This document shows, piece after piece, positions 36,906 through 41,848 of a stretch of 43,214 nucleotides of DNA. Both the position numbers and the translations under genes were made by a program. The stretch's first letter is position 1. Each line of letters begins with the position of its first letter. The stretch is taken from the IMG/VR virus record IMGVR_UViG_3300032308_001472, positions 1 through 43,214 of that record; one strand, given 5' to 3'. This DNA is from a virus. The notes below the pieces were generated by a model, which saw nothing but the letters and a program-made list of their open reading frames with translations, was not told the origin of the DNA and made no database searches.

Positions 36906-36932
36906 CTCCTAAGACTCCGCAAGTCCTAGGAG
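36906..36932. promoter_or_regulatory. 11-bp inverted repeat at end of RNA polymerase gene (operator or attenuating hairpin)
   Basis: Arms CTCCTAAGACT and AGTCCTAGGAG (one mismatch), 5-nt loop, overlapping the polymerase stop codon and 24 bp upstream of the SSB promoter motif. There is no T-run, so it is not a standard terminator. The half-site CTCCTAGGA recurs in the palindrome before the MarR-like gene. Confidence 0.55.
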
Positions 36933-39367
36933 AACAGGGCAGGGTTGGAGCCGAACAGCCCAGGGCTCAGGTCACCCTTTACCGGCGGCTTCGGCAGCCC
37001 CTGAATCCCCGTGCGCCGGCCGATCTCGCGGGTGATCTCCCCCAGCCAAGGGGTCTTGTGCATCTCCCGCATCTCCTCCAGTAACTGCTGGTGCAGCCAG
37101 CCCGCACGGCCCGCCGTGGTAGCGAAGCAGTCGTGATTGGTCAGGATCGGCACCTGTTGCGCTGCAGCGGCGCAGACGATCGCGTGACAGAGGGCAGCGT
37201 CGAAGCTGTGGATCAGGTTGGCCGGCAGCGGGATCTTCGTCTGCCGCAGGCTGAGCTCCCCATCGGGCGCCGCCTCCTGAATGTCCATCTGCATGGACTG
37301 CAGCCCGAACAGCTCGGTGCGGAACCGGTGCATGGTGGGGGTGGGTCTACCCTGCCGCATCGGGAATCCCATGGGCCCGGTCCACTCCAGCGGTTGCTGC
37401 TGGACGATCACCGGCTTGGCCAGGTTCCGGGTCCACTCAAGGAACGCCATGGCCGTGGCCAGTCGCTCATGCAGCACCCGGTTGACGATCTTCGACAGCC
37501 ACACCGATGCGTTCGCCACCTGGGTCTCGTACTCATGCAGCGGGAGCCAGCCGGTCTTCTCCTCCCGGGCCAGGCAGAACCCATCCACCAGCCCGGCGAA
37601 CCGTCCCCCGTAGGGCAGGGCCAGCACGGGCCCCTTCAGCAGCTTCCGATCGATCCCATGCTCCAGCCAGAGGCAGGCCATGTCGTGCTCCCGCCTGCTC
37701 TCCCCGTGCTGCCGGCGGCGCACCTCCTGGCGCACTTCCTGGGCGATGGTCTCGTAGAGGTCGCGCCCGGTGTCCCCCCAGAGGTTGGTCTCCCGGCCCA
37801 GCCACCGATCCCGCAGCAGGGCCGCGATGATCCCGCAGCCGCTGGTGGTCTGATCCATCCGCACCGGGCAGCCGATCGGCACGTTCGGATCGTCCAGCCA
37901 GCTGGCCACGGCCCGGCACGCCTGCAGGAACTGCCACGGTTCCTTCGCCCCCTTCCACAGGTCCAGCCGATCCAGCGGGGCGTCAGCCACGGCCACGGCC
38001 AGCTCCAGGTGTCGCTTGCTCCACGCCACCCGATCGGCCCACGGCTCCCGGCCCATCCCCCAGTGACCGGCCATGCCCCACAGCAGCCACTCGAATCCAT
38101 CCACATCCAGCTGCTCCCCTCCCCGGAAGGCGATCGCTGCCTTCTCGTGGTCCTGCCCCTGGTGGCTGGCGATCCGGTTGGCGGTGTAGACCCGGCCCCG
38201 GTCATCCAGGTCGTGCGCGAACCAGCAGGGGGTAGGTGCATCCTCAAGGGCTGCCAGGCTCCGCTCGATCCGCATCCGCCGGCCGGCGTTCTTTCTCAGG
38301 TCGGCATGGTGCTGCGCCACCTCCCGCCGGTGGCGAATGAAGGCCTCCTCCTGGGCCTCGGGGCTGGGCAAGGTGGGCAGGGGGAGCGGCCGGCTCGACA
38401 CCTTGAACAGGCCCAGGCCCCCGGCGTTCCATGCCTCCCGGGCCACGGCCACCAGCCCTTGGTCGATCTCCAGCTGCCGGCCCTGCAGGTAGTTCACCAC
38501 CGTCAGCGCGCGGCTCAGGTCGGCACCCTTCAGGTGATCGATCTGCCCATCCCTGCTCCGCACCAGCTGGGCCTTGCCGGTCAGGCTCCCGCCCCCACTC
38601 AGCCCCTCCCATGGCCGCGGCGGACAGGCCATCGCCCCCCGTGCGGTGCTCCAGCGGCCGGGCGCCACCTCCCGCACTAGCGCCATGGCGGTCTCGGTGG
38701 GGCGCACCATCCGCACGTTCCGGCCGCCCACCTTCTCTACCTGAATGATGATCAGCTCGGTCCTCTGCTCCACCAGATGGAGCATCAGGGCGCCGATCTC
38801 GTACCGCTGCACCGTTGTCCACGGCTCGGCGCTCCCCCGCCCGCATAGCTGCTCCTGAATCTTCCGCCGGGTGAGATGGCTGCGCTTCTCGTGGTGCCGC
38901 TTCAACTGGCGGAACATGGTGGGCTTGGCCGCGGCCATCTTCTGGCCCCTCAGCTCCTGCTCCAGGGTCATGCCGATGACCCCTGCAAGGGTGACGTGCT
39001 TGTCTCCCCCGGTCAGCCGATCAACGATCACCCGCAGGGCGATCAGTGCCGCGTGCTGGGGCCGGCGGAACAGGGGCAGCAGGTTCAATCCGGCATGGCC
39101 CACGCCTGCTGTGGGGTTCACCAGTTGGACCGCGGCCAGGTCGTTCAGCCCCAGGGCCACGGGCCGGGAACAGTCCCGCAGCAGCCGGCGGCCATGGGTC
39201 AGCCGGGACTCCCGGCGCATGGCCCGCAGCCGGGCCTCATTGGCGCTCTGCCGCTCCCATGCACGGCGCTCCTCCCGCCGCTCGCGGAGTAGCTGGAGCT
39301 CAGCATCACCCAGGGTGGATGTGGTGCCGATGCTGCTGGGTGATGCCGATTCCGCCTCTGAGAGCAT
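36926..39367 (-). CDS. single-subunit RNA polymerase (T7 gp1-like)
   Basis: 813 aa from the ATG at 39367 with GGGGAGG 7 nt upstream (T7: 883). Conserved parts in order: HDLDDRGRVYTANRIASHQGQD (T7-family DxRGR region, about 386-405), VRMDQTTSGCGIIAALLRD with catalytic Asp at about 505 (motif A), DRKLLKGPVLALPYGGRFAGLVDGF with Lys and Tyr of motif B (about 573-597), and ILTNHDCFATTAGRAGW with catalytic Asp at about 746 (motif C). It transcribes phage genes from phage promoters. It lies directly downstream of the attachment region, as in P-SSP7-like cyanophages. The 5' end of the gene is partly duplicated beyond the attachment site. Confidence 0.96.
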   Translation of the reverse strand: MLSEAESASPSSIGTTSTLGDAELQLLRERREERRAWERQSANEARLRAMRRESRLTHGRRLLRDCSRPVALGLNDLAAVQLVNPTAGVGHAGLNLLPLFRRPQHAALIALRVIVDRLTGGDKHVTLAGVIGMTLEQELRGQKMAAAKPTMFRQLKRHHEKRSHLTRRKIQEQLCGRGSAEPWTTVQRYEIGALMLHLVEQRTELIIIQVEKVGGRNVRMVRPTETAMALVREVAPGRWSTARGAMACPPRPWEGLSGGGSLTGKAQLVRSRDGQIDHLKGADLSRALTVVNYLQGRQLEIDQGLVAVAREAWNAGGLGLFKVSSRPLPLPTLPSPEAQEEAFIRHRREVAQHHADLRKNAGRRMRIERSLAALEDAPTPCWFAHDLDDRGRVYTANRIASHQGQDHEKAAIAFRGGEQLDVDGFEWLLWGMAGHWGMGREPWADRVAWSKRHLELAVAVADAPLDRLDLWKGAKEPWQFLQACRAVASWLDDPNVPIGCPVRMDQTTSGCGIIAALLRDRWLGRETNLWGDTGRDLYETIAQEVRQEVRRRQHGESRREHDMACLWLEHGIDRKLLKGPVLALPYGGRFAGLVDGFCLAREEKTGWLPLHEYETQVANASVWLSKIVNRVLHERLATAMAFLEWTRNLAKPVIVQQQPLEWTGPMGFPMRQGRPTPTMHRFRTELFGLQSMQMDIQEAAPDGELSLRQTKIPLPANLIHSFDAALCHAIVCAAAAQQVPILTNHDCFATTAGRAGWLHQQLLEEMREMHKTPWLGEITREIGRRTGIQGLPKPPVKGDLSPGLFGSNPALFS

Positions 39368-39373: not shown

Positions 39374-39430
39374 CTCCCCACCTATGCAGAGTCCTCCTGG
39401 CCCAGTCGCTGGCCTGTCCCTCCGGTTGAT

Positions 39431-39444
39431 CTACAAGGGTGCAG
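39431..39444 (-). promoter_or_regulatory. CTGCA-type motif before RNA polymerase gene
   Basis: The minus strand reads CTGCA-CCCT-TGTAG, 64 nt upstream of the polymerase ATG and directly after the tRNA half. A further half site CTCTGCA lies at 39385-39391. If it is a phage promoter, the polymerase would drive its own gene. Confidence 0.45.
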
Positions 39445-39457
39445 GGATGGGTAGAGC

Positions 39458-39497
39458 TTTTTAAGTCCGCTGCGTATACCGATTCCGCCATGCCCCC
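39458..39497 (-). other. 5' half of tRNA-Leu(UAA), putative attP core
   Basis: The minus strand reads GGGGGCATGGCGGAATCGG, TATACGCAGC, GGACTTAAAA. This has the acceptor 5' strand, the class II D-arm typical of Leu, the anticodon stem 5' strand and the loop CTTAAAA with anticodon UAA. After the loop the sequence turns to AGCTC and no longer pairs, so no tRNA can form. P-SSP7 carries a 42-bp match to the same half of its host's tRNA-Leu next to its integrase gene (established). This 40-bp element is thus the expected integration core. Confidence 0.85.
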
Positions 39498-39538
39498 GCC
39501 TGTCACTGCAATGGTTCTCGGGGATTCCAACTGCTGCA

Positions 39539-39570: not shown

Positions 39571-39603
39571 AGCTGGGCACCACATCCATTCCAGTGGACA
39601 CAT

Positions 39604-41533: not shown

Positions 41534-41848
41534 TCACAGGGCCCCCAGCTCCTTGGCCAGGGCCCTGCCTTGCTTGGTGAGTCGGGCCCGGTATCTGCGG
41601 CCCTCGTCGGGATCGATGTAGGTCTCGATCAGGTTGTGCCCCCGGTCCCCCTTGCGATGGCGGGGGCCCAGGGCGTTCAGCGTGCGGCTGACGCTGCTGT
41701 TGGTCAGTTCCAGCGCCTCCTCGATTTCTCGATAGGTGCAGCTGGCCCTCTGGGCAACGAACAGGAAGGTCTGAACGAAATGCAGAGGCATCTGCGGATC
41801 CAAAACCGCGAAACGCTGCAGACCCCGCTCCAGTTGACCCAGACCCAT
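41534..41848 (-). CDS. MarR-like winged-helix regulator
   Basis: 104 aa. LQRFAVLDPQMPLHFVQTFLFVAQRASCTYREIEEALELTNSSVSRTLNALGPRHRKGDRGHNLIETYIDPDEGRRYRARLTKQGRALAKEL is a compact MarR-type winged helix: recognition helix TNSSVSRTLNAL, wing about 70-90, C-terminal helix. A MarR-like gene near the integrase and RNA polymerase is also known from P-SSP7-type cyanophages. A perfect 14-bp palindrome lies 17 bp upstream of the start and is a likely autoregulatory operator. It may control the choice between lysogeny and lysis (inference). Confidence 0.8.
   Translation of the reverse strand: MGLGQLERGLQRFAVLDPQMPLHFVQTFLFVAQRASCTYREIEEALELTNSSVSRTLNALGPRHRKGDRGHNLIETYIDPDEGRRYRARLTKQGRALAKELGAL

Follow-up and report, generated by a model that had tools for sequence, protein, structure and literature searches.

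The window, i.e., the whole stretch of 43,214 nucleotides analysed here (IMG/VR record IMGVR_UViG_3300032308_001472), was recognised as T7-like (Autographiviridae-like) by its PF00940, PF14700, PF12236, PF03906, PF22530 and PF25675 domains and a gp2.5-like SSB, and its head and tail genes are also T7-like. On the minus strand, the genes follow one another in the order MarR-like regulator, tyrosine integrase, a 0.67-kb gap holding half a tRNA gene (hereafter the core), and T7-type RNA polymerase (Table 1). The integrase satisfies the R-K-H-R-(H/W)-Y pattern, with an R in the box I region, a K, H279-R282, GGW and Y314, and its stop codon (40169) lies 672 nt from the core. The core is located directly downstream of int and before the RNA polymerase gene, on the same strand as both, which is the arrangement of the P-SSP7/S-TIP37 module. 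The ATG of the polymerase (39367) is found 92 nt further downstream and is preceded by a ribosome-binding site, GGGGAGGA. In the window, we found no terminator in the stretch separating the core from the RNA polymerase gene, and a promoter scan upstream of the 5'-half cores of the window and its relatives performed no better than on shuffles. A perfect 13-bp inverted repeat, TGGATGTGGTGCC (window 39316-39328 and 39576-39588), flanks the att core, one of its arms lying within the beginning of the polymerase gene.

Table 1. Features of the att region and neighbouring genes (window coordinates; signed distances are counted from the core).
Feature	Position	Strand	Remarks
T7-type single-subunit RNA polymerase	36926..39367	-	PF00940/PF14700; same strand as core
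Second P'-arm motif CTCTGCA	39385..39391	-	+68 to +74
P'-arm motif TGCACCCTTGTAGATCA	39427..39443	-	+16 to +32; clade consensus TGCA-CCCTGCAGA-CA
attP common core	39459..39497	-	5' half (positions 1-38) of tRNA-Leu(UAA), 38/39 vs freshwater picocyanobacterial genes
Anticodon loop CTTAAAA, predicted 7-bp overlap (strand-exchange) region	39459..39465	-	presumed
GCGGA, 5' strand of anticodon stem, predicted core-type integrase site	39466..39470	-	common to most clade cores
Single base unlike host tRNA-Leu	39476	-	T vs host G; D-loop, about position 20b
P-arm motif CCCGAGAACC	39513..39522	-	-25 to -16 from core; 42 aligned attP sites
Tyrosine integrase, 332 aa	40169..41167	-	PF00589; catalytic residues present
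MarR-like transcriptional regulator, upstream of int	41534..41848	-	phrog_9665

Read from 39497 to 39459, the core is GGGGGCATGGCGGAATCGGTATACGCAGCGGACTTAAAA (39 nt). A search with it retrieved intronless tRNA-Leu(UAA) genes in 11 freshwater Synechococcus/Cyanobium-type contigs at 38/39 identity, for a chance expectation of 0 in shuffled windows with up to three mismatches allowed. The initial annotation had described an exact-looking, 40-bp 5' half of a cyanobacterial tRNA-Leu(UAA), about 0.7 kb from an intact tyrosine integrase and next to the RNA polymerase, and had read it as an attP. The genes, their distances, the place and identity of the half-tRNA and the cyanobacterial host group are borne out by our results, and the attP reading is supported by the intact integrase, the conserved arm motifs and the host match. 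The exactness is not, since the T at 39476 differs from hosts and position 39458, the 40th base of that interval, is a second mismatch. A relation to the group I intron, which splits the tRNA-Leu anticodon after U34, had also been proposed, the match supposedly ending at the intron site. We reject it: the match takes in the entire 7-nt anticodon loop CTTAAAA, running 4 nt beyond the intron site, and none of the 30 host genes inspected has an intron. As expected of half a tRNA, an Rfam scan of the core region returned nothing relevant, and ARAGORN detected no complete tRNA in the whole window. The window carries the 5' half, not the classical 3' half, with which the rebuilt tRNA retains the host promoter, and with its 39-nt core and no tRNA gene it departs from tRNA-dependent lysogeny, which combines a short core with a complete replacing phage tRNA.

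The mismatch within the core changes the D-loop string from GGTAGA in hosts to GGTATA in the window. When position 20b and its neighbour 20 were left open in a search of 400 Cyanobiaceae-family genomes, all 115 host tRNA-Leu places had GGTAGA, the sole other form belonging to a phage contig that had been placed in a genome bin; a separate count gave GGTAGA in all 146 host places. Every sampled host therefore differs from the core by this one D-loop base. The half could be an exact copy, with zero drift, of the tRNA-Leu of an unsampled host which itself has GGTATA: functional-looking tRNA-Leu genes with GGTATACGC are present in other contigs. We consider this quite unlikely, given that 0/115 Cyanobiaceae tRNA-Leu places vary at 20/20b and that the relatives of the phage display five different variants. 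Avoidance of a restriction site as the cause of the D-loop change was also dropped: GTAGAC and GTATAC are cut by the same enzyme, both being AccI sites.

Profile searches recovered 53 loci in viral records and several in genome bins, whose integrases are mostly 52-61% identical to that of the window. This single integrase clade has three kinds of core, i.e., tRNA-Leu(UAA), a tRNA with anticodon CAU, and tRNA-Tyr(GUA), the Tyr cores being 3' halves on the opposite strand with a whole tRNA-Thr adjoining. By aligning 42 int-RNA polymerase gaps on their cores, across the three tRNA targets, we identified arm motifs at fixed distances from the core, which are also present in the window. The stem CAGCGGA-N7-TCCGC is kept in most clade cores and its GCGGA arm recurs in most Leu, CAU and Tyr cores; in the window the right half-site is weak (AGCTC vs TCCGC). 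We predict the anticodon loop to be the overlap region because the attP/attB identity ends there and because relatives with other targets carry that tRNA's own loop at this place, between the same GCGGA/TCCGC-like arms. The kind of core switches at least five times on the integrase tree, and two integrases which are 99.4% identical (L135 and L137) have a Leu and a CAU core, respectively. Since the stem is constant in most cores, the loop tracks the target and near-identical integrases have different cores, target choice appears to go with stem and loop, and the remaining half would most simply serve tRNA rebuilding. In two loci, complete CAU-anticodon tRNA genes replace the half in the int-RNA polymerase gap (L153 5234-5306 and L196 4501-4573); each is possibly a phage tRNA replacing the host one. 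These comparisons also bear on whether the half-tRNA has some other role, such as an RNA element within the polymerase mRNA leader, which would account for its tRNA likeness and agree with its place on the same strand, 92 nt upstream of the start and with no terminator between. This is very improbable: in the Tyr-type relatives this place is occupied by the other half of the tRNA, lying on the other strand, which a leader role hardly allows, and the arms and integrase point to recombination.

Prophages with such an integrase were to be expected at tRNA-Leu(UAA) according to the initial annotation. Neither the window phage nor any Leu-type relative turned up as an integrated copy in the 400 Cyanobiaceae-family genomes or in IMG/VR contigs; in IMG/VR, the search used a complete-tRNA pattern and returned four contigs, none with a window-type integrase. 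Integrated relatives were found instead at tRNA-Tyr, because the integrase clade changes target. Integration elsewhere, which had been named as evidence against the proposal, thus speaks in part against it for relatives, though not for the window phage. The first case is a T7-like genome with an integrated layout at tRNA-Tyr and both junctions readable (UViG_3300044621_001214 of IMG/VR, 41,324 b; L243/L244/L171). It starts inside a tRNA-Thr, followed by the tRNA-Tyr 3' half, the P' arm and the RNA polymerase (252-2651), and finishes with int, tRNA-Thr, a complete tRNA-Tyr and a non-phage, host-like flank. A 129-bp stretch is repeated at its two ends (99.2% identity), and the sequences diverge beyond this repeat, so that a circular overlap is ruled out. 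The second junction comes from a genome bin (L235 7360-8717, G210 contig 71), in which a clade integrase lies beside tRNA-Thr and a complete tRNA-Tyr, next to host genes for dehydroquinase (aroQ), MiaE (miaE), ARD and a ligase. The tRNA-Tyr flanks of both cases agree over about 23 bases, and a search of the genus of the Tyr provirus host gave no further integrated case. This putative freshwater T7-like provirus, seen in two assemblies and separate from the window phage, is noteworthy because earlier work saw neither intact prophages nor lysogeny in T7-like cyanophages, and it bears on why these phages carry integrases. At a tRNA-Leu site, another genome bin (L237 5715-6826, G191 contig 25) has an intact tRNA-Leu gene preceded, 1,024 bp upstream, by a second 5' half; the interval is devoid of long ORFs, and the arrangement looks like a small integrated element or a remnant.

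The att site of the window could also be vestigial, i.e., the fossil of a past integration in a phage that is now effectively lytic, its D-loop change being decay. Its core mismatches all sampled hosts, the Leu-type provirus is missing from the collections searched, and in marine relatives integration affects no more than about 1% of infected cells and does not lead to lysogeny. Decay, however, should strike stems and loops alike. Among 29 integrase-distinct Leu-type sites, 27 depart from hosts at D-loop position 20 or 20b, in five combinations, and by parsimony 33/39 steps fall in the D-loop and 0 in the D or anticodon stems, so the stems are nearly unchanged in 29 lineages. In the CAU type, the host D-stem is GCA..TGC in 46/47 genomes and the phage sites have GCT..AGC or GCC..GGC instead; the pair 12:23 shifts from A-U to U-A or C-G and pairing is retained. 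When each of the 19 distinct Leu-type halves was completed with a host 3' half, ARAGORN called a tRNA-Leu every time (in one case with anticodon CAA), and the window half with a host 3' half scores as tRNA-Leu(UAA). With stems intact and changes confined mostly to the D-loop, pure decay is disfavoured; the integrase and arms are intact as well, and we judge a vestigial site unlikely.

From these comparisons, phage half-tRNAs appear to evolve under a tRNA-folding constraint. This in turn suggests that the rebuilt tRNAs must work in the descendants of integrated cells, and integration of T7-like cyanophages may therefore not be a pure dead end. The D-loop differences may reflect tolerated drift since capture or selection; L135, whose bases at 20/20b are exactly those of hosts, may have captured its half recently. 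In the Leu-type core of L183, one anticodon-loop base is changed to C (CTCAAAA), which would make the rebuilt anticodon CAA if the crossover keeps this C.

Taken together, the core is very probably the attP of a T7-like phage that infects freshwater Synechococcus/Cyanobium, from which we infer recombination by this phage. This reading rests on the 38/39 host match with the integrase and RNA polymerase intact on either side, on the MarR-int-att-RNA polymerase order also seen in P-SSP7 and S-SRP02, on arm motifs fixed across the 42 attP sites, on the conserved Leu-type stems with a rebuilt half scoring as tRNA-Leu(UAA), and on the same kind of module integrating in S-TIP37/P-SSP7 (PMC8776855) and leaving readable junctions in an integrated relative. 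Against it count the absence of a Leu-type provirus from the genomes and contigs searched, the core mismatch, the weak right half-site, and the lack of a recognisable promoter upstream of the core for the rebuilt tRNA. In the proposed attP reaction, the integrase would bind both the arm motifs on the two sides and the core, which resembles an anticodon stem; the 7-bp anticodon loop, with a presumed crossover point, would be where strands are exchanged with the tRNA-Leu(UAA) gene of the host. The phage would insert, its 5' half joining the host 3' half to give a tRNA-Leu one D-loop base off the host's, which would presumably be expressed.

The tRNA half carried (5' vs 3') might further decide whether a T7-like phage can lysogenise, an idea that we put forward tentatively and regard as rather doubtful. 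In the 5'-half phages (Leu, CAU), insertion would deprive the rebuilt tRNA of the host promoter and bring the RNA polymerase of the phage directly behind this promoter, and would thus self-induce or starve the cell. In the 3'-half phages (Tyr), the host promoter would stay on the rebuilt tRNA and the provirus could rest. This polarity fits our data because provirus junctions were seen only in 3'-half types (2/5 distinct integrases vs 0/42, small numbers in a non-random set), and because of the absence of both a promoter-like site upstream of 5'-half cores and, in the window, a terminator on the way from the core to the polymerase gene. If true, it would explain integration but not lysogeny in T7-like cyanophages, and it makes the question of their integrases testable. 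The lysogeny of pelagiphages, which likewise carry 5' halves, would bear strongly on it. Indeed, the T7-like pelagiphages HTVC105P, HTVC121P and HTVC201P share with the window the MarR-int-att-RNA polymerase order and a tRNA 5' half as core, in hosts that differ from the window's. In HTVC105P this half comes from tRNA-Leu and shares the strand of int and RNA polymerase, and in HTVC121P (L247) and HTVC201P (L248) it is an apparent tRNA-Cys(GCA) 5' half on the opposite strand.

Other tRNA-linked phages offer a partial parallel. The imperfect core of mycobacteriophage Boilgate (43 bp, five mismatches) still rebuilds a functional tRNA, with the 3' half unlike in the window, and other phages of tRNA-dependent lysogeny carry a whole compensating tRNA, which the window lacks (PMC10865867). 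The nearest isolate is the freshwater Synechococcus phage S-SRP02 (MW822601, PMC8790148), with an integrase and an RNA polymerase 60% and 41% identical, respectively, to those of the window. It has the same MarR-int-att-RNA polymerase layout with a Leu half-tRNA in the int-RNA polymerase gap, but differs by a KilA-N and other genes between int and core and by more changed D-loop bases; the searched passages of its description do not mention an att site (PMC8790148). The closest experimental precedent is marine. S-TIP37 and P-SSP7 were shown to integrate at tRNA-Leu, int and attP being both needed: integration is abolished in the delta-attP and delta-int mutants of S-TIP37, and integration mutants have normal fitness (PMC8776855). 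Integration occurs in 0.3-1% of infected cells, without stable lysogens (PMC8776855). In these two phages as in the window, int is followed directly, on the same strand, by 39 nt corresponding to the first half of tRNA-Leu(UAA) (PMC8776855), and as in P-SSP7, which the initial annotation had rightly invoked, the window core is upstream of the RNA polymerase and a MarR-like gene precedes int, although the integrases of the window and P-SSP7 are only about 24% identical. Unlike the marine attP, a perfect match to the first half of the host tRNA-Leu in 11/11 cases (PMC8776855), the window core is at 38/39 to the hosts sampled and 27/29 Leu-type sites of its clade deviate in the D-loop. Hence, the kind of module and tRNA-Leu integration with such a layout are already known, and proven, in marine T7-like cyanophages (PMC8776855). 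What is new in the window attP is the freshwater clade to which this proven marine module is extended, with Leu cores nearly all off-host at two D-loop positions and with tRNA stems intact, the imperfect core itself, and the target switching of one integrase clade among tRNA-Leu, tRNA-CAU and tRNA-Tyr sites.
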